A stretch of 64,000 nt of DNA from Devosia sp. 2618 (lineage in GTDB: Bacteria > Pseudomonadota > Alphaproteobacteria > Rhizobiales > Devosiaceae), in contig NZ_JBEPOO010000001.1 of NCBI RefSeq assembly GCF_040546815.1, positions 868,001-932,000 on the forward strand. The letters run 5' to 3'. The notes below the pieces were generated by a model. That model ran no database searches. It saw only the letters and a program-made list of their open reading frames with translations, and was not told the origin of the DNA. Every line of letters begins with the position of its first letter. The stretch's first letter is position 1. A program made the translations under genes and the position numbers. Of the stretch, positions 49,949 through 64,000 are shown piece by piece.

Positions 49949-50377
49949 CTATTTGATCATGTCGGGGCAGACATAGGGCACTTCGGCGACGGCAAACCGC
50001 TGTTCCTGCACGTCCTTGCCGAGTTTGAGATTGAGCACCAGTTCGGTGTCGCTGATGCTGGCAATATCGGCATTGATGGTCATGCCATCTTCATCCCAGC
50101 TGATCGCGCTATCGGAAACCTGCTGCCACTTGGAGAGGCGATAGGTTTCCCAGCAGGAGTCGGTCACCAGCGTGCCATCGCCGAGAAAAATCTGCATCGG
50201 GCCGGGTAGGGATGGATCAGCGTCCGAGCGAACCCAGACCTTGTTGAGCAGCGGGTTGTCGCTCTCGACAGCGTCATCGCTGGCTTCGGAACTCTCTTGT
50301 GCATTGGCTGGCAAGGTGGCGCATACGCCGACGCCCCAAACACTCATAAGGGCAAGGATTGCGGCCTTGGTATCCAT
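49949..50377 (-). CDS. Small secreted protein of unknown function
   Basis: The 142-residue product has a signal peptide (MDTKAAILALMSVWGVGVCA, cleavage near ANA) and a mature lipocalin-like or META-like small domain: NPLLNKVWVRSDADPSLPGP, FLGDGTLVTDSCWETYRLSK, a beta-rich end and CPDM. The family is not recognised with certainty. GGAGATA precedes the start at 50377. Confidence 0.75.
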   Translation of the reverse strand: MDTKAAILALMSVWGVGVCATLPANAQESSEASDDAVESDNPLLNKVWVRSDADPSLPGPMQIFLGDGTLVTDSCWETYRLSKWQQVSDSAISWDEDGMTINADIASISDTELVLNLKLGKDVQEQRFAVAEVPYVCPDMIK

Positions 50378-50442
50378 CGAATATCTCCATGTTCGAAGCG
50401 CCAGTCTGCATTGCATGCCTGTAGCACCGATTTGGCCCATCA

Positions 50443-50469
50443 ATCGCGGCAAATTTGCGTTGCCGCGAT
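50443..50469. repeat. Perfect 10-bp inverted repeat with 7-nt loop
   Basis: ATCGCGGCAA (50443-50452) and TTGCCGCGAT (50460-50469) are exact reverse complements. The hairpin lies 27 bp past the end of the Old Yellow Enzyme gene and about 65 bp before the start of the next minus-strand gene. It has no T run, so it may be a transcript-stabilising hairpin or an operator. Confidence 0.6.
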
Positions 50470-50495
50470 GATGGTTTGGCGAAACGTGATGGTCG

Positions 50496-51626
50496 TCAGG
50501 CGGTTTTGAAGTGGCGATGGCCGAGCGCGCGGTCGCGTTCGCGGACCCGAGCGGTCTGCTTGGGCCAGAGACTATAGTCCTCGGCGCCCAGCGCGTGACG
50601 GGCATGAACCGGCCAGTTTGGCTCGTCGAGCGCACCACGGGCGAGGGCGATAAAGTCGGCATGACCGTCTGCCACAATCGCCTCGGCGCGCAGCACATCG
50701 CCGAGCAGGCCAACCGCCATGCTGGGCAGGCCGCCCTCCTTGCGCACGGCCGTGGCGAGCGCCACCTGATATTCGGGACCGACCGGCACGACAGCGCCTT
50801 CAAAGCCGCCGCTCGACGCATCGATGGCGTCGACGCCGCGTGTCTTGAGTTCGCGGGTCAGGGCAACGCTGTCCTCGACCGACCAGCCTTCTGGGTGCCA
50901 ATCGGTGATCGACAGGCGCACTACCAATGGCTTGTCCTCAGGCCAAACGGCGCGGACCGCATCGACCACTTCGAGCAGGAGCCGCATCCGGTTTTCGCGA
51001 CTGCCGCCATATTGGTCGGTGCGCTTGTTGGCGAGCGGCGACAGGAACTGGTTCAACAGATAGCCATGTGCCGCGTGGATTTCGACGGTATCGAAGCCCG
51101 CCTTGTCGGCACGAATGGCGGATGCGACGAACGCGTCGATGACATTGCGGATGCCGGCTTCATCGAGCGCCTCTGGCGCGGTGAAGTTCTTGCCCTCGGC
51201 ATGGATGACGGCGCTCGGCGCCACAGGCGTCCAGCTTTCAAAATGCAGCGCGGCTTTTTCGGCGTCGGTTTCGTCAAAGCCATTGCGCCATGGAACCGGC
51301 GTCGCGGCCTTGCGCCCGGCATGGGCCAGCTGAATACCGGCTGCCGCGCCCTGGCTGTGCAGGAAATCGACGATGCGGGCGAAGGGGGCGATCTGCTCGT
51401 CCTTCCACAGGCCGAGATCGGCATAGCTGATGCGCCCTTCGGCAACCACAGCGGTCGCTTCAAGGATCACCAGACCAAAACCGCCAATGGCGAAGCGTCC
51501 GAGATGGGCAAAGTGCCAGTCATTGGCAAAGCCGTCCTGCGCCGAATACTGGCACATCGGCGCAACTACCGTTCGGTTGCGCAGCGTCAGGCCGCGCAGG
51601 GTGATGGGGGAAAACAGCTGGGACAT
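50496..51626 (-). CDS. NADH:flavin oxidoreductase, Old Yellow Enzyme family (YqjM/NamA type)
   Basis: The 376-residue FMN ene-reductase has the thermophilic-like OYE pattern: NRTVVAPMCQYSAQDGFAND (with the Cys that tunes FMN), GIQLAHAGRKA, the substrate-binding HAAHGYLLNQFLSPLANKRT and a C-terminal FIALARGALDEPNWP. It reduces activated C=C bonds; often involved in detoxification. The ATG at 51626 begins the family N-terminus. An inverted repeat 63 bp upstream may be its operator. Confidence 0.93.
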   Translation of the reverse strand: MSQLFSPITLRGLTLRNRTVVAPMCQYSAQDGFANDWHFAHLGRFAIGGFGLVILEATAVVAEGRISYADLGLWKDEQIAPFARIVDFLHSQGAAAGIQLAHAGRKAATPVPWRNGFDETDAEKAALHFESWTPVAPSAVIHAEGKNFTAPEALDEAGIRNVIDAFVASAIRADKAGFDTVEIHAAHGYLLNQFLSPLANKRTDQYGGSRENRMRLLLEVVDAVRAVWPEDKPLVVRLSITDWHPEGWSVEDSVALTRELKTRGVDAIDASSGGFEGAVVPVGPEYQVALATAVRKEGGLPSMAVGLLGDVLRAEAIVADGHADFIALARGALDEPNWPVHARHALGAEDYSLWPKQTARVRERDRALGHRHFKTA

Positions 51627-51688
51627 GGGAAGGCTCTTTGTGTGTCTGTGCCGGAGGAGGCGCATGCATACATGCATTCTCCGCACTC

Positions 51689-51706
51689 CATCGGCAAGTG
51701 CCGATG
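51689..51706. promoter_or_regulatory. Inverted repeat upstream of the Old Yellow Enzyme gene
   Basis: CATCGGCA (51689-51696) and TGCCGATG (51699-51706) form a perfect 8-2-8 palindrome in the 189-bp space between the divergent OYE gene and the next gene. A second, imperfect inverted repeat (GTTGC...GCAAC with TTCACC/GGTGAG inside) lies at 51719-51748. Confidence 0.4.
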
Positions 51707-51815
51707 AATGAAAGCTCTGTTGCGTTCACCGCATGGTGAGTGAGCAACGACGGCGCAGGATTGGTTTCGTAAACCTTCACGCGGTAGTTTCCCGCCCGTA
51801 AACGAGGACGACCGC

Positions 51816-52721
51816 ATGAAGATCACGCTCGATCTGGACGCATTGGTAGCCAATGGCAAGCTGACGACAGCCGATGCCGAACGGCTCAAGGGCTATGCCG
51901 CCGAAGACACCGGCGCATTGGGCACCAATGTTTTCCTGGCGCTCGGCGCTGCCGTCGTGGCGGCCGGCGTGGGCGTGCTCGTCCCAACCATGGAGACGGC
52001 TATTGCCATCGGCGTCTTGCTGACCGGGATCGGCCTATGGCTGCGCATCGCGCGCGTCGAGCGCTGGGCCCTGTTCGGCCAGATCGTGCTGATCATTGGC
52101 GTTCTGGCCTTTGTCGGTGGCGTTGGTGCCTTGTTCGGCGAGCTGATCTGGGTGCGCGCCTTGCTGACCATCGGATTGGCGGTGGCCGCGGTCGGCGCGC
52201 GATCCGGCATGCTGGCGGCGCTGGCCGTGCTGGCCTTTGCGGCCTCGATCATCATCAATCCCGATCTGGATTCGGCGCAGTATCTGACGATCTCCATCGT
52301 CATCCTCGCAGCGCTGGTGCTGGGCCTCTACATTCTCTCGCTGCGCCTGCCGCATGCTTATGAGCGGTTGGCAATCATCGCCATGCGGACGGCTATCCTG
52401 CTTGTGAACGTGGCGTTCTTTCTCGGTTCGCTCTTGGGCGATAGTTCGCTCGGCCTCTCCAGCGTGTTCTTCAGCATTGCCTGGGCCCTTGCCATGGCCG
52501 CCTTTGCCATCTGGGCGGTGTTTGCCAACCGGCGCTGGGTCGTCAACACCATGGCCGTTTTCGGCGCGATCCACTTCTTCACGCAGTGGTTTTCGGCGCT
52601 TGGTGCACAGCCGTTGTCGATCCTTGGCGGTGGTTTGCTGCTGATCGCATTCGGGCTTGGGCTCGCCTGGTTCAATCGCTGGGTGGGTATTCGCAAGGAA
52701 GCGCAGCGCGCGGCGACATAA
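51816..52721 (+). CDS. DUF2157-like multi-spanning membrane protein
   Basis: The 301-residue protein starts with a short cytoplasmic helix pair (LDALVANGKLTTADAERLKG, as in DUF2157) followed by eight to ten hydrophobic segments. No catalytic motif is visible and function is unknown. It is the first of four plus-strand genes leading into the copper group, though 71 bp separate it from the next. Confidence 0.75.
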   Translation: MKITLDLDALVANGKLTTADAERLKGYAAEDTGALGTNVFLALGAAVVAAGVGVLVPTMETAIAIGVLLTGIGLWLRIARVERWALFGQIVLIIGVLAFVGGVGALFGELIWVRALLTIGLAVAAVGARSGMLAALAVLAFAASIIINPDLDSAQYLTISIVILAALVLGLYILSLRLPHAYERLAIIAMRTAILLVNVAFFLGSLLGDSSLGLSSVFFSIAWALAMAAFAIWAVFANRRWVVNTMAVFGAIHFFTQWFSALGAQPLSILGGGLLLIAFGLGLAWFNRWVGIRKEAQRAAT

Positions 52722-52792
52722 AGCTGCGACATTTGTGGACTTGAAGCGGCTGCGCGCGACCTTTAGAGCCTAGAGCCAAGGGGAAGTGCTTT

Positions 52793-53179
52793 ATGCCGTT
52801 TCGGTCACGAGGGATCGCCAAGGAGATGGGCACCGCGTTTGCGGTTCTGGCCATCTATGTCTTTACGCTCCTCGCGCCCCTGCATCACGCTGCTGCCCAG
52901 CAGCGCGACTTTGCTACCCTTGGCTACGAAACCCTCACCTCATGGTCGATTTGCGCCAACCTGACGCAAAATGACTTTGGCGATCAGACGGTCACCGCAT
53001 CCAAATGCGCGGCCGCCGGCATTGCCAAGAACGACTTCGTGGCGACTGCGCCAGCGTCCATTGACCTGCCGATCATCCGGATCGTCGAGCGCGTCGCCTA
53101 TTTTACCCCAAGTGTGCGGCCGCCGCAGACGGTCGAAGCCCATATCGGGCAGGCGCGAGCGCCACCAGTGATGGTTTGA
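52793..53179 (+). CDS. Small secreted protein in the copper gene group
   Basis: The 128-residue product has a hydrophobic N-terminal segment (GTAFAVLAIYVFTLLAPLHH) likely acting as signal, then a polar domain with two Cys (SICANLTQ, ASKCAAAG) and a basic, Pro-rich end. I do not recognise the family; position resembles small DUF2946-type genes near copC/copD, but the sequence does not prove that. It precedes ycnI by 47 bp. Confidence 0.6.
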   Translation: MPFRSRGIAKEMGTAFAVLAIYVFTLLAPLHHAAAQQRDFATLGYETLTSWSICANLTQNDFGDQTVTASKCAAAGIAKNDFVATAPASIDLPIIRIVERVAYFTPSVRPPQTVEAHIGQARAPPVMV

Positions 53180-53226
53180 TCGCAGCTTTCGCTGCCTCTC
53201 AAACCCATTCAATCACTGGAATAATC

Positions 53227-53751
53227 ATGATCCGTTTTCTCTCCTGCGCCGCCATGGCCGTCGCAACTGTCGCTGCCCTTTCCGTCCCTGCCTTCGCCCA
53301 TGTCACGCTCGAAGTGCAGCAGGCCAATATCGGCTCGACCTACAAGGCCGTGGTCCGCGTTCCGCATGGTTGCGGCACCGAGGCGACCAATGTCGTCCGT
53401 ATCCAGATCCCCGAAGGCTTTTTTGCCGTCAAGCCGATGCCCAAGGCCGGCTGGGACCTCGAAGTCGTTACCGGGCCCTACAAGAACGCCTATGACAATC
53501 ACGGCGCGGCCGTGACTGAAGGTGTCACCGAAATCGTCTGGTCCGGCGGTGATCTGCCCGACGCGTTCTACGACGAGTTCGTGTTCCGCGGCACCTTTGC
53601 CGCGTCGCTTGCGCCGGGCAAGTTCTACTTCCCGACCATTCAGGAATGCGCCAGCGCCGAAGAAGCTTGGATCGACGTGACCGGGTCGGACGCTGCTGAC
53701 ATGCCAGCGCCGAGCCTTGAGCTGGTGCCAGCCAAGGGCGCCGGTCACTAA
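53227..53751 (+). CDS. YcnI family (DUF1775) copper-binding protein
   Basis: The 174-residue product has a signal peptide ending in VPAFA, so the mature protein begins HVTLEVQQANIGSTYKAVVR. In characterised YcnI the N-terminal His with a nearby Glu binds Cu(II); here His1 and Glu5 are kept. The domain continues with VPHGCGTEATNVVRIQIPEG, FAVKPMPKAGWDLE and FYFPTIQECASAEEAWIDV. It is predicted periplasmic, delivering copper to the CopC-CopD fusion encoded next. Confidence 0.9.
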   Translation: MIRFLSCAAMAVATVAALSVPAFAHVTLEVQQANIGSTYKAVVRVPHGCGTEATNVVRIQIPEGFFAVKPMPKAGWDLEVVTGPYKNAYDNHGAAVTEGVTEIVWSGGDLPDAFYDEFVFRGTFAASLAPGKFYFPTIQECASAEEAWIDVTGSDAADMPAPSLELVPAKGAGH

Positions 53752-53808
53752 GTCTGCCGGGGCGCGGGAGACCGCGCCTCATTTTCCTTCTCAGATGACG
53801 AGGGCGAA

Positions 53809-55395
53809 ATGCGCAGAGCTTTCACGCGCTATTGTCTGGTTGCCATGCTGGGCCTGCTCCTCGCAACGCTCCCGGCCGCAACCGCATGGGCCCACGCCCA
53901 ACTGCTATCGACCGACCCGACCGAAAACGCGGTGCTCGACGCTGCGCCCGAAGCATTGCGACTGCATTTCAACGAGCCCGTCACCGCCTTGGCGATCCGC
54001 CTGATCGACAAGGACGGCGTGGCCACGGATCTCCTGGAGCAAACCACCAGCGGCGAGACGGTCGCGGTTTCCGTTCCCGACGCTTTGGCCGACGGCACGC
54101 AGGTGCTGAGCTGGCGCGTCGTCTCCACCGACGGTCACCCCATCGCGGGGTCGCTGATCTTTTCGGTCGGCATGGTCACCGGCGCCAGCGTCGTCGCGAC
54201 AGGGACCGACCAAGCCGTCGCCGTGGCGCTCTGGACCGGCAAACTCGTCCTGTTCATCGCGCTATTTGTCGGCGTCGGCGGCGCGGTGTTTTCGGCAGCG
54301 GCGACACTTCCACCGGCAGCGCATCGAACTGCCCTTGTCTTATCAGTCATTGGCATCGTGGTCGCACCCGTGACACTTGGCTTGCAGGGTCTCGATGCCT
54401 TGGGCCTGCCGCTCACATCGCTGTTTGATCTCGCCACATGGAGGGCTGGGCTATCGACCAGCTATGGCAACACCGCCATCGCCGCGACCTTGGCCTTTGC
54501 ATTGGCTGTGCTTGCCCTCGCCGTGCGGCCATCTCGCACGCTCGCCATTCTGGCCGGTCTTGTCGCAGCCCTCTCCATCGCTCTTAGCGGCCACGCCAGC
54601 GCCGCCAACCCGCAATGGCTGACACGCCCTGCCGTGTTCCTCCACATCGCCGGACTGCTATTCTGGATCGGCGCGCTGTTGCCTTTGTGGCTCCTGCTCC
54701 GCACCCAGTCCGCCGATGCCAGCCGCGCGCTGGCTAACTTCTCCCGCGCCGTGCCCTTCGCCGTTGCCGCCATCGTGGTGTCAGGCATCGCCCTCGGCAT
54801 CATCCAGATGGGCGCTCCGGGCCCGCAATGGCTGTCCGCCTATGGCATCATTCTCGCCATCAAGCTTGGCCTCCTGGTCATCCTCTTCGCGCTTGCCTTG
54901 TGGAACCGGCTCTCGCTGACCACCCCCGCCTTGGCCGGAGAGGTCAAAGCGCAAACCCGCCTCCGCCAGTCCATCGGTGTCGAACTCGCACTCGTCCTGA
55001 TCATCCTTGCTCTGGTCGCCGGTTGGCGCTTCACCCCGCCACCGCGCGCGCTGGCGGTAGTCGTTGAAGCCGCCGAGCCGATCTATGGCCACGTCATGGA
55101 CGACGAGCACATGGCGATGCTCACCATCACGCCGGGTCAGGCCGGCCCGACCATCATCGAGATCATCCTCACCGACTTCGAGGGCGAACTGCTGACGCCA
55201 CTCAGCGTGGACGTCACCTTCTCCCAACCCGATCTCGGCATCGAACCCTTCACGCGCCCCGCAGTCGAAAGCGAGGGCCTATGGCTGATCCAAGACCTGA
55301 CCATACCCGTCCCCGGCACCTGGCTCGTCGACCTCAACATCCGCGCCAGCCGGTTCGAGTTGTTCAAGATGGAGGGCGAGGTGGATGTGCCTTAG
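53809..55395 (+). CDS. CopC-CopD fusion protein
   Basis: The 528-residue product has a signal peptide ending in WAHA, a CopC beta-barrel domain (mature His start HAQLLSTDPTENAVL; SWRVVSTDGHPIAGSLIFSV with the C-terminal His ligand), then a CopD membrane domain of about eight segments with conserved His (LSGHASAANPQW, PAVFLHIAGLLFWIGALLPL). The C-terminal ~120 residues form an extra periplasmic beta domain like the YcnJ type. It is predicted to import or sense copper across the inner membrane together with YcnI. Confidence 0.92.
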   Translation: MRRAFTRYCLVAMLGLLLATLPAATAWAHAQLLSTDPTENAVLDAAPEALRLHFNEPVTALAIRLIDKDGVATDLLEQTTSGETVAVSVPDALADGTQVLSWRVVSTDGHPIAGSLIFSVGMVTGASVVATGTDQAVAVALWTGKLVLFIALFVGVGGAVFSAAATLPPAAHRTALVLSVIGIVVAPVTLGLQGLDALGLPLTSLFDLATWRAGLSTSYGNTAIAATLAFALAVLALAVRPSRTLAILAGLVAALSIALSGHASAANPQWLTRPAVFLHIAGLLFWIGALLPLWLLLRTQSADASRALANFSRAVPFAVAAIVVSGIALGIIQMGAPGPQWLSAYGIILAIKLGLLVILFALALWNRLSLTTPALAGEVKAQTRLRQSIGVELALVLIILALVAGWRFTPPPRALAVVVEAAEPIYGHVMDDEHMAMLTITPGQAGPTIIEIILTDFEGELLTPLSVDVTFSQPDLGIEPFTRPAVESEGLWLIQDLTIPVPGTWLVDLNIRASRFELFKMEGEVDVP

Positions 55396-55399
55396 TCGC

Positions 55400-55950
55400 C
55401 TATCGCAATGAGAAGCGGATTGTTGCGGTGATCGAACGGTTGGCGTAGCCGGCGGGTGGTGTTGGGAGCGGAGAGGCGCGGCGGGCGGTGTCCAGCGCGG
55501 CTTGGTCGAGCACGGGCGATCCCGATGAGCGGGCGATGCTGACGGCGGTGATCTGGCCGCTGGCGCTGACCGAAAAACTGATACCGACCGAGCCTTGTAC
55601 GCCGTCGGCCTGGGCGGCGCGCGGATAGACTTTGCGTCGGTCGAGTTGGGCCAGAACCTGGGACTGCCACTGTTGTGGCGAGACGGTGTTTGCGGCAGGC
55701 GGCGGGGATGCGGGTGCTGTTGTCTGCTGACGCGGCGCACGTTTGGGCAAAGCCGCCATGCTTTCGCGCTGCTCCTGCAGTCGTGGCGAAATCATCACCG
55801 GCATCGCAACGTCTGACATCGTTTCGACAACAGGCTCCTCCTCGACAGGTGGCTCCACGATCTTCGGTAGTGGTTACTCGACCGGCTCGGGCGGTATTAC
55901 TTCGGGTTCGGGTCGACTTCGCCCAATGTACCCGCCCTCGCCGAAGGCTA
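55400..55950 (-). pseudogene. tonB-like gene with a nonsense codon and no clear N-terminal anchor
   Basis: Residues read from 55858 to 55400 form a TonB C-terminal domain: WQSQVLAQLDRRKVYPRAAQ, GSVGISFSVSASGQITAVSI, VLDQAALDTARRASPLPTPP, ending ATIRFSLR. The Pro/Glu-rich linker continues upstream in frame (PEPEVIPPEPVE, then PLPKIVEPPVEEE) but is cut by TAA at 55876-55874. Beyond the linker only AFGEGGYIGRS is credible and no membrane segment is found. A GTG at 55858 could restart a 152-residue anchorless domain. TonB normally energises outer-membrane uptake from the inner membrane, so this copy is probably inactive. Confidence 0.65.
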
Positions 55951-55978
55951 CAGTTAACCACCCAGCAGACCGCGCCAC

Positions 55979-56617
55979 GGACCTATTCCGACGACGGCAG
56001 CACTTTGCCACCGTTCAGGAACGACATTGTGGACGTACTCACGCACCAAGGCCGAGGCCGAACGTTTGGCGTTCAGCCAGAATGGACCGGACTTCGCGGT
56101 CATCGCCGTGCGTCCACGGATGGTCTGGGGCAGGGACGATACGACGGCCTTGCCGCAACTGCTTGGCGCCGCCAAGTCAGGGCAACTGGCCTGGATTGAT
56201 GGCGGTGGCTACAAAACGTCCAGCACCCACATCGCCAATCTCTGCGCCGGGATCGACCTCGCTTTGGACAAGGGACGCGGTGGAGAAATCTACTTTCTCA
56301 CCGATGGCGAGCCTTGGGCTTTCCGCAAGTTAGTCAGCGGCATGCTTGCCGCCAATGGCGTCGCCATCCCCAACAAGACCGTACCACGCTGGCTGCTGCG
56401 CGCCATGGCACAGGTTGGTGATGCGCTCGCCGACCTGACCGGCGGACGCATGACTCTGCCGATCACCATGCAGTCCTACGCCACCTCGGCCGTCGAAGTG
56501 ACGCTCGATATCACCAAGGCCCGAACCGAGCTTGGCTACCGTCCGGTCATCACCATCGAGGATGGGCTGGCCGAAATGGCAGAGCAGAACGCTCAGTCGA
56601 TCTCGACGACGTCATAA
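55979..56617 (+). pseudogene. NAD-dependent epimerase/dehydratase, 5'-truncated and frameshifted
   Basis: From 56027 the frame reads WTYSRTKAEAERLAFSQNGP, AVIAVRPRMVWGRDDT and on to ARTELGYRPVITIEDGLAEM, the C-terminal ~190 residues of an extended short-chain dehydrogenase (3-beta-HSD-like). YSRTK is the catalytic YxxxK. The N-terminal NAD-binding half (about 130-150 residues with GxxGxxG) is missing. The stretch SDDGSTLPPFRNDIVD just upstream is in another frame and may belong to the same gene, implying a frameshift near 56031-56037. No ATG start exists. The last 25 bp overlap the convergent gene end. Confidence 0.65.
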
Positions 56618-57105
56618 GCCTCTACGGCCGGCAGCACCAAAAGCCGGTCGGCCATTTCTTGCTTGAGCCCGACCAGATGCTTGTTCTCAGCAGCGGTCTT
56701 GTCCGGCTTGCGGCTGAGCAGGATAAACTCCTCGCGCACAATGCCTTCACGGATGGTCAGCTTGAGCGTTTTGCCGCGATAGCCCAGCACGAACACATAG
56801 CCCTTGAGGAACTCGCCGCGCTCCAGGGCCAGGAGACTATCGTCGATGATGTAGCGGCCTTCGGTCGTAGCGCGGGTGACCATTTCAAAACCGTCACGGG
56901 CGCCGGGGCCCTTGAACGGGGTGCGGATGGTGATCTCGCGGCGTTCCGGCGGCGTCTCTCCGCCGAGCAGGGGCAAGGCGCGCTGCATGACCTTGAACGA
57001 ATGGGCCACGCCGCCGGGAAAGCCGAAGCCGTGATAGCGGGCGAGATCGGCAAAGCCATAGGTAAGTTCCTGCCCGGCTTCGAGGACGGTGATGGTATTG
57101 GTCAT
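56593..57105 (-). CDS. FmdE-like protein lacking the metal cysteines
   Basis: The 170-residue protein has features of the FmdE fold: YHGFGFPGGVAHSFKVMQRA near residue 24, GPGARDGFEMVTRATTEGRY near 70-90 and YVFVLGYRGKTLKLTI. In archaeal FmdE these places carry H-G-H-x-C-P and Cys clusters that bind metal. Here every such Cys is replaced and the protein contains no Cys at all. I infer a degenerate or repurposed FmdE domain. It is the last gene of the ABC importer operon, overlapping the previous gene by 4 nt. Confidence 0.6.
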   Translation of the reverse strand: MTNTITVLEAGQELTYGFADLARYHGFGFPGGVAHSFKVMQRALPLLGGETPPERREITIRTPFKGPGARDGFEMVTRATTEGRYIIDDSLLALERGEFLKGYVFVLGYRGKTLKLTIREGIVREEFILLSRKPDKTAAENKHLVGLKQEMADRLLVLPAVEAYDVVEID

Positions 57106-57722
57106 TGGTCTGCTTTCTGGTCGAGTTCGGCGCGCATCCAGGGCAGGAAGCCCTCGAGGAAGCGCGTGGTGGCAGGCATAAAATGGCTGCCGTGATGGAA
57201 GAATGGGTCGAGGCTGGTGATGACCATGCGGCCCTTAGTGGTCACCTCGTCGACATAAAGAATGGGCTTGCCCTCGCCGTTGATGGCCAGCACTTCGGCG
57301 CCCTCGGGCGGATCGAACCAGCCATGCAAATGCCAGGTGATGTCGCGCTGGGTCAGGTTGTCGAACAGGGCATGAGTTGGTGCCGCAATCCGCACGCCGA
57401 GATCTGCCCCCGGTGTCAGCCACCACCAGAAGTTGGTCGGCTGCGGCGTGAACGTGATTCCTGGCAGGAAGAGCTGGCTCTCGCTTTCGCCGGTAGCGAC
57501 CACGGTGCCGCCCGCGTCGAGATAGGCCTGCAACTGCGCCACATGCGGCTGCATCCGATCGGCCGGGGTGCGGCAGGGGATCAGCACGACATTGTAGGCC
57601 GTCAGATCGGTCTGCGGCAGGTCTTCGGGGCGAACCAGGGCGTCGAAATAGCCGGCAAAGCGCGGGCTTTCGAAACTCTCGATATGATAGTACGCGCCGG
57701 GATGGATGCACAGGATGCTCAT
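57102..57722 (-). CDS. Glutamine-amidotransferase-fold protein B, no catalytic Cys
   Basis: The 206-residue protein begins MSILCIHPGAYYHIESFESP and has the class I amidotransferase/ThuA-like alternation: VVLIPCRTPADRM, LQAYLDAGGTVVATGESESQ (nucleophile-elbow position, Glu-Ser instead of Cys), HGWFDPPEGAEVLAINGEGK and MVITSLDPFFHHGSHFMP with a His pair. It resembles the product of the preceding gene in layout, so the two are probably divergent paralogues. Overlaps of 4 nt on both sides (ATGA) tie it to the importer operon. Function is unknown. Confidence 0.65.
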   Translation of the reverse strand: MSILCIHPGAYYHIESFESPRFAGYFDALVRPEDLPQTDLTAYNVVLIPCRTPADRMQPHVAQLQAYLDAGGTVVATGESESQLFLPGITFTPQPTNFWWWLTPGADLGVRIAAPTHALFDNLTQRDITWHLHGWFDPPEGAEVLAINGEGKPILYVDEVTTKGRMVITSLDPFFHHGSHFMPATTRFLEGFLPWMRAELDQKADQ

Positions 57723-58324
57723 GGGGCGAGTTCCCCGGCGCACCAGGCGATGATGCGCTGAGTCAGGAGAGGCCCGTTGCCGGTCTGCCCGCCCATGCCG
57801 CCAACGTCATTGCCCGCATGCGAGAATATGTGGCCACCTTCCGGGCGGCTCCAGGCCCAGTCGATGGGGCGCAGTTCGGCCCCGATGCCGTTCACCGGAA
57901 TGGCCCCCGGCGGAAGTGGGTTGTGGCCCCGGCCATAGAAGCCCGCCACACCGTTGTTTTCCTCCAGCGAGCTCTGGTCTATGTCGGCAAAGATCGGATG
58001 CTCATAGAGCCGCGTCAGTACATAGTCGGCGCGCTTGGGCGCCGTCAGCGGCACATAGCGCGAGAGCCCACAAAGAAAATTGCGCAGCATGTGGCCGTTG
58101 AAAAACCAGCGCCCGCCGCGATCCAGCAAAGTCGTCAGCGCATCGGCATGCGCCAGAAAACCGACCTGATCGAGATGGGTGGTGGTGATCAGTCCGGACG
58201 CCGCACCGAAGTCGCTCGCCACCAGATCGCGTTCACGCACGATGGCGACGCGACCGGTGCTGGCGGCTGCGGCATAACCGGCAGGTGGGGCCCCGAAGTG
58301 TGAGTGGATCAAGATTACGGTCAT
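57719..58324 (-). CDS. Glutamine-amidotransferase-fold protein A, no catalytic Cys
   Basis: The 201-residue protein starts MTVILIHSHFGAPPAGYAAA. LTTLLDRGGRWFFNGHMLRN aligns with the nucleophile elbow of its neighbour (LQAYLDAGGTVVATGESESQ) but has His-Met in place of Cys. YEHPIFADID matches THALFDNLT there, and GGHIFSHAGNDVGGMGG matches the His-rich loop. No enzyme motif is complete, so it may be a binding or scaffold protein. Coupled by ATGA overlaps to the ATPase gene upstream and protein B downstream. Confidence 0.65.
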   Translation of the reverse strand: MTVILIHSHFGAPPAGYAAAASTGRVAIVRERDLVASDFGAASGLITTTHLDQVGFLAHADALTTLLDRGGRWFFNGHMLRNFLCGLSRYVPLTAPKRADYVLTRLYEHPIFADIDQSSLEENNGVAGFYGRGHNPLPPGAIPVNGIGAELRPIDWAWSRPEGGHIFSHAGNDVGGMGGQTGNGPLLTQRIIAWCAGELAP

Positions 58325-59079
58325 GATGCGCGCATCCCGGCAAAGGCAGGCAAGACGGCCTGATGCAGCGCGCCATCGGCCCCGGTCAGGCTAACCAGCC
58401 GCATGGGCACGCCGTAAAGGCGTTCGAGGTTTTCGGGCACGATGGTTTCGGCCACCGGCCCAAACAGAGCCGGGCCATCGGGCAGCATCAGCAAGGCATC
58501 GTCCGCCGCTGCCAGCGCATGATTGGGGTCGTGGGTGGTGAAGACGATGGTGCGGTCGCGCGGCTCCCGCAGCGACGACAACAGGGTCAGCAGCCGCTCC
58601 TGATTGTGCAGATCCAGCGCCGAGCCTGGCTCGTCCAGAACCAAGACGCTCGATCCAGTTGCCAGTGCTCGCGCCAGCAGAACCAGTTGCCGTTCGCCGC
58701 CGGACAGGCGATCAAACCGCTCGTCGACAAAGGCGATGGCCCCGACCTGTTCCAATGCATCGCGGGCAGCGGCAAAGTCGGCGGGCGTTGGCTGGCCGAA
58801 CAGACCGAGCCCCGCCGCACGCCCCATGACCACTGCGTCCAGCACCTTGTAGCTCTGATTGCTCGACGCATATTGCGGCACATAACCGACCAGCGCCGGC
58901 GCAGTGCGGCTGCCGCCATGCAGCGGCTGAAAGCCCAACATGGCGCGCAAGGCGGTGGTCTTGCCGCGACCATTGGGTCCCAGAATGGCGAGACTCCGAC
59001 CCGCCGGGGCGGTAAAGCTTAGCTGATCCAGTACAGTGCGGTGGCCAAAGCGCACGACGGCGTCGGTGAGCCCGATCAT
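58321..59079 (-). CDS. FecE/BtuD-type ABC transporter ATP-binding protein
   Basis: The 252-residue cytoplasmic ATPase has Walker A LGPNGRGKTTALRAML, a Q-loop near GYVPQYASSNQSYK, the signature LSGGERQLVLLARAL, Walker B VLVLDEPGSALDL and the H-switch FTTHDPNH. The Walker A Arg in place of the usual Ser/Cys (GPNGRGKTT) is a small variation. Start ATG at 59079 overlaps the permease stop. It powers the importer encoded upstream. Confidence 0.92.
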   Translation of the reverse strand: MIGLTDAVVRFGHRTVLDQLSFTAPAGRSLAILGPNGRGKTTALRAMLGFQPLHGGSRTAPALVGYVPQYASSNQSYKVLDAVVMGRAAGLGLFGQPTPADFAAARDALEQVGAIAFVDERFDRLSGGERQLVLLARALATGSSVLVLDEPGSALDLHNQERLLTLLSSLREPRDRTIVFTTHDPNHALAAADDALLMLPDGPALFGPVAETIVPENLERLYGVPMRLVSLTGADGALHQAVLPAFAGMRAS

Positions 59080-60140
59080 CTGGCTTCCTTGTCGCGAAAG
59101 TGCCGGCGCAGCAGCACGGCAAAGACCGGTGCTCCGACGATGGCTGTCAGAACGCCCAGCGGAATTTCGGCAGCCGTAACGGTTCGTGCCAGCGTGTCGA
59201 TGGTGACCATGAACGCCGCGCCCAGCAGGGCGGTGGCGGGCAACAGGCGGCGGTGATCGTAGCCGACGATCAACCGGGCCGCATGCGGGATGACGAGGCC
59301 AACCCAGCCAACGATGCCCGAAACAGCGACCTGGCACCCGACAATCAGCGCCACCAGTGCAAAGACTAGCCAGCGTTCGCGGTCAGGATTTGCGCCTAGG
59401 CTACGGGCTTCGGCATCATCAAGCGACAGCACGTTGAGCCGGAAGCGCAGCGCCCATAGCAGCCCGATGCCGATGGCCAGCCCGGGCACTGAAATCAGCA
59501 CGCGATCCCAGGTGGCGGTCGCGAACGAGCCCATCAGCCAATAGACGATGGCCGGCAGTGAGCTATTTGGATCGGCGATGAATTGCAGCAGCGACACCAT
59601 CGCCGAGAACAGCGAGCCCACCACCATGCCGGACAGGATGACGGTGATGATCTCGGTGCGGCCGTCGATGCGGGCCAGCAGGCCGACGAAAACCAGAGCC
59701 GAAAATCCGCTGATAAAGACGATGGCCAGCAGCGGTACGCCCCAGATACCCAACGTGATCGCCAATGCGCCACCGAACGCGCCGCCCTGGGAAATGCCCA
59801 GCACTTCGGGAGAAACCAGCGGGTTGCGGAATACGCCTTGTAGCGCCACACCCGCCGTCGCCAAAGCCGCACCCGCCATGGCCGAGATGATGACGCGCGG
59901 GGTGCGGACCAACAGGACGATGCGCTCGTCCATGGTCTCGACGCTCATGCCGGGATTGGTGATGGCCCGGAAAAGAATCTCGAGTGCCCTCGGCGCGCTG
60001 ACCGAGAAGCGGCCAACACAGAGGCTGACAAGGATCGAAATGAACAGCGCAGCGCCGAAGGCCGTGAAGGCGATGGCCGTGCGGGTCCAGCCGCCCCAAC
60101 GGGGGGCGGGCGCCCCCGTTGCCTCGATTGTGGTGGTCAC
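59076..60140 (-). CDS. FecCD/BtuC-type ABC transporter permease
   Basis: The 354-residue protein has about ten membrane segments with the FecCD signatures RTPRVIISAMAGAALATAGV, LQGVFRNPLVSPEVLGISQG and GWVGLVIPHAARLIVGYDHR. The last includes the cytoplasmic loop that docks on the ATPase. This type II importer class carries Fe-siderophores, haem, cobalamin and, in MolBCA, molybdate. It lies 3 nt after the binding-protein stop. Confidence 0.93.
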   Translation of the reverse strand: MTTTIEATGAPAPRWGGWTRTAIAFTAFGAALFISILVSLCVGRFSVSAPRALEILFRAITNPGMSVETMDERIVLLVRTPRVIISAMAGAALATAGVALQGVFRNPLVSPEVLGISQGGAFGGALAITLGIWGVPLLAIVFISGFSALVFVGLLARIDGRTEIITVILSGMVVGSLFSAMVSLLQFIADPNSSLPAIVYWLMGSFATATWDRVLISVPGLAIGIGLLWALRFRLNVLSLDDAEARSLGANPDRERWLVFALVALIVGCQVAVSGIVGWVGLVIPHAARLIVGYDHRRLLPATALLGAAFMVTIDTLARTVTAAEIPLGVLTAIVGAPVFAVLLRRHFRDKEAR

Positions 60141-60143
60141 GAT

Positions 60144-61235
60144 CTATTTCGCCGCGAACTGGTCGTAGCCGAAGCTGTCGCCCTGCTGGGCGGTCCAGAT
60201 GATGTCGTCGATATCTTCGCCGGTCAGCTCATAGTTGTAGAGCGTCTTGTAGGCCTTGGTCATTTCGGCGCGCAGATCATAGTTGAAGACGTCAGGGTGC
60301 AGCAGGTCGGCCAGCCACATCCAGGTCAGTGGCGATTCCTGGTTCGGTGGGTCCCAGCGGTAGCCGCCCAGTGGCATCTTGTAGACGCGGTGGTTCTGCG
60401 CGGCCTTGGTCAGCGACAGGATCGGATCGTCATAAACCCAGGACACATCGAGGTTTGGCTCGAAGCTGTTGAGCAGGATGACTTCGGGGTCCCACTGGGC
60501 GATCTGCTCGCGGTTGATCGAGAGGCTGCCATCGAGTTCGGCGGCGGCGTTCCGGCCACCGGCCAGCTCGATATACCAGGCGTTGTAATTGCCCTTATTG
60601 CCCGACGCGGTGATGTCGGACAGCGAGCGGCCAAGATAGAGCACGCTCGGACGGTCTTCCTCGGCAATGCCGGCCGTCTTGGCCTCGATGTCCTTTTGGA
60701 CCTGATCGCGCCACTCGACCAGTTCGGTGATGCGCTCGGGCTTCCCGATGGCAGTGGCGACCATGGTCATATATTCGCGGGTCAGGTCTTCGGTGCCGTA
60801 TTTGATCAGCAGCGTGTTAAGTCCGGCATTGAGGATTGGATCGACGATCTCAGGACCACGGCCGCCCCACTGGATCACGAGGTCCGGATTTACCTCGGCG
60901 AGGGCTTCCACATTGGGCACGAAATCGGTGCCGGTCACAGCGTCCGAGATATTGGCCGCGTCGGGGAAAATCTTGCCGAGAATGCCTTCGCGGATGGCTG
61001 TCAGCGACAGGGGATTGAGGCCCACCAGCGTTTCATCGGTGCCGCTCAGGGCAATTACGCCAGAAGCCATCGGCATTGGAATGGTGACAATGCGCTGCGC
61101 CGGCGCCGAGAGAGTGACCTCACGGCCTTCATGGTCGGTCACCACGATGTCCTGCGCCATCGCCGTTCCGGTCATGCCGAGCAGGACAATGCCAGCCCCC
61201 AGCCAATTGCATCCGCCCGCGACTACCTTGCTCAT
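60144..61235 (-). CDS. FecB/BtuF-type periplasmic binding protein
   Basis: The 363-residue product has a signal peptide (LGAGIVLLGMTGTAMAQD) and the class III binding-protein fold: VVTDHEGREVTLSAPAQRIV, EALAEVNPDLVIQWGGRGPE, and a C-lobe with YRWDPPNQESPLTWMWLADL then LHPDVFNYDL. The C-lobe's WDPPNQESPL loop is seen in several iron, molybdate and cobalamin binders, so the ligand is open. First gene of a six-gene minus-strand operon. Confidence 0.9.
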   Translation of the reverse strand: MSKVVAGGCNWLGAGIVLLGMTGTAMAQDIVVTDHEGREVTLSAPAQRIVTIPMPMASGVIALSGTDETLVGLNPLSLTAIREGILGKIFPDAANISDAVTGTDFVPNVEALAEVNPDLVIQWGGRGPEIVDPILNAGLNTLLIKYGTEDLTREYMTMVATAIGKPERITELVEWRDQVQKDIEAKTAGIAEEDRPSVLYLGRSLSDITASGNKGNYNAWYIELAGGRNAAAELDGSLSINREQIAQWDPEVILLNSFEPNLDVSWVYDDPILSLTKAAQNHRVYKMPLGGYRWDPPNQESPLTWMWLADLLHPDVFNYDLRAEMTKAYKTLYNYELTGEDIDDIIWTAQQGDSFGYDQFAAK

Positions 61236-61314
61236 TGTCTACCTTTCCAGCCTACGTGATCCGCTCATAAATATGACAGCGAATGCCCGGTTTGCTAATA
61301 TTGGTGACTATGAT

Positions 61315-61363
61315 TGTCAAGTTAACTTCAGCCAGGATTTGTGGCGTTGGCGCCTGGCGCCAA
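61315..61363 (-). promoter_or_regulatory. Upstream region of the importer operon: palindrome and -35-like element
   Basis: TTGGCGCC-T-GGCGCCAA (61347-61363) is a perfect 8-1-8 palindrome. On the minus strand TTGACA (61320-61315) lies 27 bp further downstream, toward the operon start at 61235; the matching -10 is unclear (TAGCAA at 17 nt). The palindrome may bind a repressor or activator of the operon. Confidence 0.4.
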
Positions 61364-61407
61364 GATCCGGTCCAAATGCCGCACGGCTGGCGCGTTTGAA
61401 CTGGCTT

Positions 61408-61437
61408 CAAATGAAAATGGCGGCCCGAAGGCCGCCA
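61408..61437 (-). terminator. Terminator of acnB
   Basis: On the minus strand GGCGGCC (61436-61430) pairs with GGCCGCC (61425-61419) around TTCG, followed by ATTTTCATTT. It starts 56 nt past the acnB stop. Confidence 0.8.
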
Positions 61438-61492
61438 CTTGATGCTCTACTTGTCTCGCCCCGCTTCGCTCTCGCGATAACCAGTGCGCGGC

Positions 61493-64000
61493 TTAGAAAT
61501 GCACCGACTTGGAGTCGATTGGCGTCGTTTGCGGTGGGGCAAACTTGGTCAGGTTGATGCCCACGACAGCCGCCTTGTATTCTTCGGCGCTTGGGGTGCG
61601 GCCGAGGATGGCGGAGAGCACGACGACCGGGGTCGAGGCGAGCAGCGATTCACCCTTCTTTTCGGCCGTGTCTTCCACGACGCGGCCCTGGAACAGGCGG
61701 GTCGAAGTGGCCAGAACGGTGTCGCCCTTTTCGGCCTTTTCCTGGTTGCCCATGCAGAGGTTACAGCCGGGACGTTCGAGATAGAGGATGTTCTCGTACT
61801 CGGTGCGGTTGGATGTCTTGGGCTTGAGGTCGTCGAATTCAAAGCCGGAATACTTCTGGAGGATTTCCCAGTCGCCTTCGGCCTTGAGCTCGTCGATGAT
61901 GTTGTAGGTCGGCGCAGCGACCACCAGAGGCGCCTTGAACTCGACCTTGCCTTCGGTCTTTTCGATGTTCTTGAGCATCTGGGCGACGATCTTCATGTCG
62001 CCCTTATGCACCATGCACGAACCCACAAACCCAAGGTCCACCTTCTTGGTGCCGCCATAGTAGGAAACCGGGCGGATGGTGTCGTGGGTATAGCGGCGCG
62101 AGACGTCGGAATTGTTGACGTCTGGGTCAGCGATCATCGGCTCGTCGATCAGGTCGAGATCGACGACCACTTCGGCGAAGTATTTCGCATTGGCATCGGG
62201 CGTCAGCGCCGGCTTTTCACCCGAGCGGATCTCGAAAATGCGGGCATCGGCCTTGGCGATCAGGCCCTTGAGCGTCTGGGCCGGGTTGTCCATGCCCTTG
62301 TCGATCATGATCTGGATGCGCGACTTAGCGATTTCCAGCGACTCGATCAGCGTCGCGTCCTGCGAAATGCAGATCGAGGCCTTGGCCTTCATCTCTGCCG
62401 TCCAGTCGGTGAACGTGAAGGCCTGATCGGCCAGCAGCGTGCCGATATGGACTTCGATGATGCGGCCCTGGAAGACGTTGTCGCCGTGTTGCTTGAGCAT
62501 CTGCGCCTGCGTGGCATGCACCACGTCGCGGAAGTCCATATGCGGCTGCATCGTGCCCTTGAAGGTCACCTTGACCGACTGCGGGATCGGCATGGTGGCC
62601 TCGCCCGTGGCCAGAGCCAGCGCCACGGTGCCCGAGTCCGCGCCAAAAGCGACGCCCTTGGACATGCGGGTGTGGCTGTCACCGCCGATGATGATGGCCC
62701 AATCGTCCACGGTGATGTCGTTGAGCACCTTGTGGATCACGTCGGTCATGGCGTGATAGCTGCCCTTCGGATCACGCGCCGTGATAACACCGAAATTGTT
62801 CATGAAGGCCATGAGCTTGGGGATATTGGCCTGAGCCTTTTTGTCCCAGACCGATGCCGTGTGGCAGCCCGACTGATAGGCGCCATCGACCAGTGGCGAA
62901 ATGACAGTGGCCGCCATCGCCTCAAGTTCCTGCGCGGTCATCAGGCCAGTCGTGTCCTGCGAGCCGACGATATTGACCGTGACGCGGACGTCCGAACCGG
63001 CATGCAGCACCTTGCCCGGTGCCACGCCAACGGCATTGCGGTTGAAGATCTTTTCGACCGCGGTCAGACCCTGGCCTTCGACGGTGATTTCCTTGTTCGG
63101 AGCAAAGACCGCAGGCGCTTCGACGCCGAGCGTCTGGGCGGCAAAGGTCTGCAGCTTCTTGCCGAAGACGATGGCGTAGGAGCTGCCGGCCTTCATGAAC
63201 TCGGTCTTTTGCGGCGTGAAGGCTGCGGCGACATCGACCAGCTCATTGCCGGCTTCGTCGCGCAGCTTTTTGGCCTTCGTGTCGATCGTCAAAACGGTAC
63301 CGGTCTCGACAGAATATTTCTGCTCAAGGATCGGATTGCCTTCGTTGTTGAGGATCGGCTTGCCGTCTTCGCCGAGCTTTTTCACCCAGTTCTTGAGATT
63401 GAGGCCAATGCCGCCGGTCACGTCGACCGTGGTTGCGAAAATCGGCGAAATGCCGTTGGTGCCCGCAACGATCGGGGCGAAGTTGACGAATGGCACGTAG
63501 GGGCTGGCTGGCTTGCCGGTCCACAGCGCCACGTTGTTGACGCCCGACATACGCGACGAGCCCACGCCCATCGTGCCCTTTTCGGCGATCATCATCACCC
63601 GCTTGTCGGGGTGCTGGCGCTGCAGCGCCTGAATTTCCTTCTGCGCGGCAGGCGTGATCATGCACTGGCCGTGCAGCTCGCGGTCCGAGCGGGAGTGCGC
63701 CTGATTACCGGGCGACAGCAGATCGGTCGAAATATCGCCTTCGGCGGCGATATAGGTCACGACCTTGATTTCGTCTTCGACAGCAGGGAGCTTGGTGAAG
63801 AACTCGGCCTTGGCATAGCTCTCGAGCACGTCCTTGGCGACGGCGTTGCCGGCCTTATAGGCATCGCGCAGCCGGAACATGTCGACGTCATAGAGGAAGA
63901 CCTGGGTCTTGAGCACGTCGCCAGCTTTGCCGGCAATCGCCGCGTCATCGCCGAGCGCGATATCGAGCAGAACATCGATCGAAGGGCCACCCTTCATGTG
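61493..64000 (-). CDS. acnB: Aconitate hydratase B, 5' end outside the window
   Basis: AcnB interconverts citrate and isocitrate in the TCA cycle and often also acts on 2-methylisocitrate. About 835 codons are visible; the missing N-terminus is roughly 100 residues compared with the E. coli enzyme, whose GGYNIHPLIDAL corresponds to GGPSIDVLLDIAL at the edge. The 4Fe-4S ligands are in SGCHTASVWD and ERPGCNLCMGN. GGDSHTRMSKGVAFGADSG and VGSCMVHKGDM are intact. It ends with ...DSKSVHF and a terminator. Confidence 0.95.
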   Translation of the reverse strand, partial: HMKGGPSIDVLLDIALGDDAAIAGKAGDVLKTQVFLYDVDMFRLRDAYKAGNAVAKDVLESYAKAEFFTKLPAVEDEIKVVTYIAAEGDISTDLLSPGNQAHSRSDRELHGQCMITPAAQKEIQALQRQHPDKRVMMIAEKGTMGVGSSRMSGVNNVALWTGKPASPYVPFVNFAPIVAGTNGISPIFATTVDVTGGIGLNLKNWVKKLGEDGKPILNNEGNPILEQKYSVETGTVLTIDTKAKKLRDEAGNELVDVAAAFTPQKTEFMKAGSSYAIVFGKKLQTFAAQTLGVEAPAVFAPNKEITVEGQGLTAVEKIFNRNAVGVAPGKVLHAGSDVRVTVNIVGSQDTTGLMTAQELEAMAATVISPLVDGAYQSGCHTASVWDKKAQANIPKLMAFMNNFGVITARDPKGSYHAMTDVIHKVLNDITVDDWAIIIGGDSHTRMSKGVAFGADSGTVALALATGEATMPIPQSVKVTFKGTMQPHMDFRDVVHATQAQMLKQHGDNVFQGRIIEVHIGTLLADQAFTFTDWTAEMKAKASICISQDATLIESLEIAKSRIQIMIDKGMDNPAQTLKGLIAKADARIFEIRSGEKPALTPDANAKYFAEVVVDLDLIDEPMIADPDVNNSDVSRRYTHDTIRPVSYYGGTKKVDLGFVGSCMVHKGDMKIVAQMLKNIEKTEGKVEFKAPLVVAAPTYNIIDELKAEGDWEILQKYSGFEFDDLKPKTSNRTEYENILYLERPGCNLCMGNQEKAEKGDTVLATSTRLFQGRVVEDTAEKKGESLLASTPVVVLSAILGRTPSAEEYKAAVVGINLTKFAPPQTTPIDSKSVHF

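Follow-up and report, generated by a model that had tools for sequence, protein, structure and literature searches.

Type II ATP-binding cassette (ABC) importers such as FecBCDE, FhuBCD and BtuFCD take up siderophores, heme and cobalamin. Iron is released from imported chelates in the cytosol by a few reductases and esterases, and FhuF, SIP and Fes are the cytosolic iron-release enzymes of siderophore systems. Here we describe a six-gene operon of the soil bacterium Devosia sp. 2618 in which an importer of this type is encoded together with three further cytosolic proteins: GAT1 and GAT2, assigned to the GATase1/ThuA-like fold, and Fmd, with an FmdE fold. The operon lies in a 64,000-nt stretch of contig NZ_JBEPOO010000001.1 (positions 868,001 to 932,000), referred to below as the window; related loci are numbered with the letter L. 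We favor, with a fair degree of confidence, the reading that the operon encodes an iron-chelate importer induced by iron starvation, whose accessory trio acts on the chelate in the cytosol, handling it or taking it apart.

Operon organization and the three accessory proteins

The operon occupies 61235-56593 of the minus strand, and its open frames leave hardly a base unused. Its existence was confirmed, as was the tight coupling noted in the preliminary description: neighboring genes overlap by ATGA at four junctions and are 3 nt apart at the fifth. The first gene encodes a FecB-type periplasmic binding protein (SBP, P0006, 60144..61235) that scores 67.7 bits to Peripla_BP_2 (cut-off 27.5) and has 4ovk as its nearest solved chain (E 8.7e-55). 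It is followed by a FecCD-type permease with a GTG start (P0005, 59076..60140; FecCD 280 bits, cut-off 26.5) and an ABC ATPase (P0004, 58321..59079, with two extra residues ahead of its start; ABC_tran 75.9 bits, cut-off 25). With all three subunits at their Pfam families in one operon, the earlier assignment as a FecB-FecCD-FecE-type importer holds, and the importer is an ordinary type II (FecBCD/BtuFCD) system. None of the subunits rises above the cut-off of a specific NCBIfam member and no substrate class is named by them: the permease scores best to BtuC (234.9 vs the cut-off of 461), and the best scores of the ATPase and the binding protein are 143.9 (cut-off 537) and 62.9 (cut-off 325).

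GAT1 (P0003, 57719..58324) is predicted from its structural model to adopt a GATase1/ThuA-like fold and was likened to the solved structures 3soz, 2gk3, 3rht and 1t0b. GAT2 (P0002, 57102..57722, with one extra residue ahead of its start) was provisionally assigned to the same fold through profile kinship; GAT1 and GAT2 are paralogs (E 2.4e-5). Neither reaches the Pfam gathering score for ThuA (PF06283): GAT2 has a weak match (0.0075; 17 bits vs 33.4) and GAT1 has none. No Cys is invariant in 32 GAT1 and 25 GAT2 sequences, as judged without residue-level superposition, and the catalytic Cys of amidotransferases was not found among them. Because this class Cys is absent, ordinary glutamine hydrolysis is unlikely for both proteins. 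They have a signature of their own, made of many invariant His, Asp and Trp residues. GAT1 and GAT2 probably form one unit since they are fused in some relatives (L052, L054, L057 and L071).

Fmd (P0001, 56593..57105) has the FmdE fold. The fold-comparison lists contained many weak rows, which were not used. PF02663 gave no match to P0001 up to E 1 and no match in a search of the host genome, so the gathering score was not reached; it was matched, weakly or better, by 12 of 35 close Fmd relatives (best 9.5e-6). Members of the FmdE family carry a conserved Cys/His metal motif. All 35 Fmd sequences carry the motif YHG-x-G-[FY]-PGG with Phe or Tyr (Phe in the window protein) at the usual Cys position and no Cys, so this metal motif is missing. 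The preliminary description had called the three cytosolic partners devoid of their expected Cys, and the alignments bear this out. At E 1e-3, 1,137 Fmd homologs were found, each representing a 90% cluster; the named homologs of Fmd and GAT1 are mostly from Devosia and other Hyphomicrobiales.

Iron-type operator-like sites at the operon and its relatives

RirA is a repressor of iron uptake that recognizes TGA-N9-TCA boxes (PMC8822346, PMC6386902); RirA and IRO boxes are also treated in PMC5863699. A putative RirA-type (IRO) operator, AACTTGACAATCATAGTCACCAA, with the core TGA-N9-TCA is found at 61301..61323 (minus strand), 65 nt ahead of the SBP start. The host genome carries a rirA gene (NCBIfam RirA 218.6 bits, cut-off 193), and the operon is thus a predicted member of the RirA regulon. 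The site contains TTGACA, a possible -35 hexamer; a promoter scan reported no minus-strand promoter at the site.

The palindrome AACWTGA-N9-TCAWGTT occurs with two or fewer mismatches at 46 places in the host genome, vs 16 for the reversed control. Thirteen of these sites were examined first, namely every one of the seven with at most one mismatch, plus six selected by eye from the remaining 39. Two flank rirA, nine lie just upstream of ten Peripla_BP_2 genes (one of them, in L100, under the Pfam cut-off) and two do neither. A further site among the 39 precedes, by about 50 nt, the single TonB receptor gene found in the host genome; genes resembling exbB and tonB by eye follow the receptor gene. 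An operator matrix was built from 11 host sites, nine by siderophore-type binding-protein genes and two by rirA. The operon's own site was excluded, as were the examined sites at 1432872 and 4190371, which are not beside such genes. By this matrix the 61301-61323 site ranks first among 63,978 window positions (16.3 vs 13.2 for the next). The host genome has 25 Peripla_BP_2 genes vs the one TonB receptor found, that is, many siderophore-type binding proteins and one outer-membrane gate. At least nine of the 25 genes score 15 or more (six training sites and one operon site included) vs none of about 3,000 background windows; the count for the 25 is a lower bound, with the wrong frame or strand taken at least at L153, L158 and L163 and probably at L148, L156, L159 and L160. 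The site is not a general mark of Peripla_BP_2 genes because some of the 25 are without one.

The exact core is present in 17 of 37 upstream regions; of 46 regions, 9 had been set aside because they were too short or nearly identical to others. Shuffling gave 2.56 on average, and in 200 shuffles the observed number was never reached. Other core spacers occur in 0 to 6 of the 37 regions, with N8 and N14 reaching 6 each. Three of the 17 positives (L037, L041 and L051) look like chance, being distant from, or within, coding sequence. The best matrix site of the locus lies ahead of the importer's SBP gene in 10 of 13 related loci, the Nik-type locus L128 included. Of these 13 starts, four are on contigs already used (L128/L014, L129/L013, L135/L021 and L138/L044). 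Among the newly found FecBCD loci of the family (L130, L131, L133, L134, L137, L139 and L140), six of seven rank first. In Paenibacillus (L051), a Fur box matching at 18 of 19 positions, equaled by 0 of 300 shuffles, stands upstream of Fmd-GAT1-GAT2 and a Nik-type importer. Fur-like sites elsewhere scored, with the number of 300 shuffles as high in brackets, 14/19 at the SBP gene of L040 (4), 12/19 at L042 (8), 14/19 at L052 (10), 13/19 at L047 (21) and 11/19 at L056 (53); the site at the Fmd gene of L040 was no better than shuffles.

Several observations weigh against an iron role. The operon site (16.3) scores below all 11 training sites (22.8-32.9). In three of the 13 tested loci (L130, L141 and L142) the best site is not at the importer; for L141 and L142 the tested start is that of a gene that does not open its cluster. 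Most Rhizobium/Neorhizobium loci are without the exact core, with matrix scores of about 10-16 (L015 and L033 reach 22.9). Fur-like sites were no better than shuffles at the SsuABC clusters of L048, L069 and L062 and at L041, L049, L053, L055 and L058. The carbon-phosphorus (C-P) lyase and HupE/UreJ partners described below do not obviously fit iron. Taken with these points, the operator-type sites are good but indirect evidence, read from sequence, that the system serves iron. The metal or metallophore importer proposed in the preliminary description is thereby retained and narrowed to iron by RirA-type sites at both importer classes and by the Paenibacillus Fur box; its molybdate/tungstate option finds no support here.

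Exchange of the importer and partners in related loci

An Fmd-profile scan of genome contigs, seeded by the motif YHGFGFPGG and one other and hence favoring near relatives, yielded 33 loci whose neighborhoods were read with a panel of reference proteins. A FecBCD importer is present in 25, of which 24 have the six-gene order of the window; in L040, the 25th, a TonB receptor sits between Fmd and the remaining genes. Five loci have a Nik/Dpp-type importer instead (L014, L029, L037, L042 and L043), so that an importer of one of the two classes accompanies the accessory genes in 30 of 33. The L029 importer is only partly visible at a contig edge, and L037 has no GAT1 at threshold. Neither importer was seen in L028 (trio alone), L038 (Fmd alone) and L045 (weak partial match). 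In L031 (4820-6003, Rhizobium johnstonii 3841) the permease was matched in two frames that overlap, possibly because the record contains a frameshift. The accessory genes are thus not found mostly apart from an importer, and the joint function suggested earlier is supported; the linkage is to an importer, not to a fixed one, as Nik/Dpp-type systems and, for Fmd relatives, SsuABC-type systems also occur.

The exchange is seen among Devosia relatives: FecBCD is used in L013, L021, L044 and the window and Nik/Dpp in L014, L029 and L065, with GAT1-GAT2-Fmd retained. Among 13 loci of the host's family (L128-L140), nine (L129, L130, L131, L133, L134, L135, L137, L138 and L140, the last with a fused-type GAT) have, with no Nik importer involved, a window-type FecBCD by GAT1-GAT2 or a GAT2 relative, or a looser variant. 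L139 has FecBCD and extra GAT genes, L128 and L136 are of Nik type and L132 shows no importer. The set is rare: GAT2 was found in at least 15 of 136 genomes of the family and at least 4 of 398 of the phylum (host included), and Fmd in at least 11 of 297 of the order. These counts are lower bounds as the searches scored part of the first-look candidates (e.g., 7 of 30 for the host genome). TonB receptors adjoin the related sets L039, L040, L041, L049, L055, L063 and L142; the nearest solved receptors of that in L039 (FhuA, PhuR, CntO, FoxA, OprC and others) indicate no single ligand. A third importer type occurs on a haloarchaeal plasmid (L053, 7282-8555), where genes for a GAT2 homolog and a second protein of like size are flanked by those for an extracellular binding protein and a large iron-type permease.

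Because the accessory genes stay as the importer class changes, the accessory proteins appear to recognize the ligand rather than one importer, and the trio probably handles the imported iron chelate rather than serving the importer itself. Alternatively, the trio could consist of binding or regulatory partners, such as a cytosolic chelate or metal buffer or an importer-gating sensor, and process no ligand. The missing class Cys in GAT1, GAT2 and Fmd would suit such a role, as would the SsuABC-linked Fmd copies, which have lost even the N-terminal His motif. Nevertheless we consider it unlikely, since a fixed contact to one importer is hard to reconcile with the change of importer class, and the many invariant His, Asp and Trp residues in GAT1 and GAT2 speak against it.

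The Nik/Dpp-type importers in 5 of 33 loci also raise the possibility that the imported chelate contains nickel, cobalt or another metal, with iron only as regulator. A HupE/UreJ-type protein (PF13795 in L058, homologs in L042 and L060) adjoins the Nik-type importer or Fmd; HupE/UreJ is a Ni/Co permease family. Against this reading, which seems improbable to us, are the iron-type operators and the scores of the NikA-like protein of L058, which remain far below the nickel cut-off (138.5 vs 393) and the CntA cut-off (93.2 vs 800).

Thirty-six plasmid records have an Fmd match, and 11 were viewed in context (one unannotated record was read with the reference-protein panel). In L046, L047 and L057 the genes run LysR, binding protein, FecCD, ATPase, Fmd and PhnG onward. 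The PhnGHIJKL run is complete in L046 and L047; L057 is cut inside its last gene, and L071, where a GAT1-GAT2 fusion precedes the importer-Fmd-Phn run, is cut after PhnI. These four records comprise plasmids of Rhizobium, Klebsiella and Agrobacterium and a 22.6-kb Labrenzia plasmid. In L047, PhnJ and PhnI match chains of the E. coli C-P lyase (1.9e-79 and 3.3e-76), and PhnJ retains its C-terminal Cys residues. Such runs would fit a nutritional role, in which an organic phosphonate or a similar compound is taken up and broken down and iron control is incidental. We give this little credence: no phn gene is beside the window operon, the binding proteins belong to another type than those of phosphonate importers, and the TGA-N9-TCA core is also present in three of the four runs (L046, L057 and L071). 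The C-P lyase and the other partners suggest chemistry on some organic ligand, which they do not name.

Degenerate Fmd copies accompany an SsuABC-type importer on E. coli plasmids (L048 and L069) and in Azospirillum (L056); in L048 and L069 two degenerate FmdE-like proteins stand one on each side of the importer. In L062 (8795-10321) one 508-aa frame with two tandem Fmd-type domains follows an SsuABC-type importer, and L070 is a fragment with no importer. The SsuABC-linked copies may have another function and were not counted toward iron.

Uptake of molybdate/tungstate or a Mo/W cofactor, a hint of the preliminary description that rested on the FmdE name and for which we saw nothing in support, is extremely improbable: the fold kinship of Fmd to FmdE-like proteins and the remote similarity in sequence between the binding protein and HI_1472 (E 1.6e-9), a molybdate/tungstate binding protein, are set against the iron-type operator and the far closer match to 4ovk.

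Proposed role of the trio and comparison with known systems

In the iron-chelate reading that we favor, RirA would occupy the operator and keep the operon off when iron is plentiful. Iron limitation would lift RirA; as expected from their families, the binding protein would pick up the chelate in the periplasm for import by the FecCD/ATPase pair. GAT1 and GAT2, probably as one unit, may then bind the whole chelate or only its organic part, which they would most likely modify by Cys-independent chemistry, and the FmdE-fold protein may assist release or takeover of the metal; these cytosolic steps are the weakest of the scheme. The chemistry assigned to the trio is a guess. A bolder proposal, possible but doubtful as a whole, sees in GAT1-GAT2-Fmd a new, portable cytosolic machine for taking apart imported iron chelates of one chemical class. 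It would work behind at least two evolutionarily unrelated importers in Proteobacteria, Actinobacteria and Bacillota. On mobile plasmids Fmd (in one case also a GAT1-GAT2 fusion) would be joined to C-P lyase, and this enzyme would cleave the C-P bond in a chelator that carries a phosphonate group. The placing of C-P lyase genes behind an iron-type operator would point to a use of the enzyme beyond phosphorus supply; if true, the phosphonate-chelator proposal would be the first link of C-P lyase to iron acquisition. A trio kept behind changing importers would also provide a role for the large Fmd family, which is without one.

The sequences around the operon were noted in passing. Just past its end are two frames that look truncated, a TonB C-terminal domain frame (55400-55858, minus strand) and the C-terminal half of a 3Beta_HSD-type gene (56027-56617, plus strand). 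Further on, at 53176-55395, a DUF1775 protein adjoins a CopC-CopD protein, a usual copper-handling pair. No Rfam family reached its gathering score in 50000-64000.

A literature search, made mostly outside subscription papers and supplements, found no description of the accessory set or of its link to iron-type operators, in agreement with the earlier suggestion that the arrangement had not been described; the accessible parts of PMC10763504, PMC11356716 and PMC12815270 contain nothing on the set. The window operon resembles the FecBCDE, FhuBCD and BtuFCD systems in its three importer subunits and differs in reaching no specific NCBIfam member and in encoding three extra cytosolic proteins. 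The Nik/Cnt/Dpp-type importers for nickel, opine metallophores and peptides are unrelated to the window's FecBCD, but relatives that share the accessory genes make use of their class; the NikA-like protein of one such relative falls under both the nickel and the CntA cut-offs. On plasmids, C-P lyase (PhnGHIJKL) genes are found together with Fmd and a FecBCD importer; the window operon has none, and the L046 and L047 runs have no PhnCDE importer or PhnM among their annotated genes. GAT1 is similar to GATase1-like/ThuA-like proteins in its predicted fold and GAT2 by weak profile kinship; both differ in falling below the Pfam cut-offs, in having no conserved Cys and in their own signature. With the FmdE-like proteins (PF02663; solved structures 2glz, 3d00 and 2gvi) Fmd shares the fold, and about a third of its close relatives (12 of 35) match the family; it differs in that P0001 is unmatched, in the Phe/Tyr that replaces Cys throughout and in its importer neighbor. 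FhuF, SIP and Fes resemble the trio in the role proposed for it, the freeing of iron from an imported chelate, and differ in sequence, as general family scans of the three proteins showed no similarity to them. A conserved trio that is kept despite replacement of the importer would represent a new candidate class of iron-release proteins.

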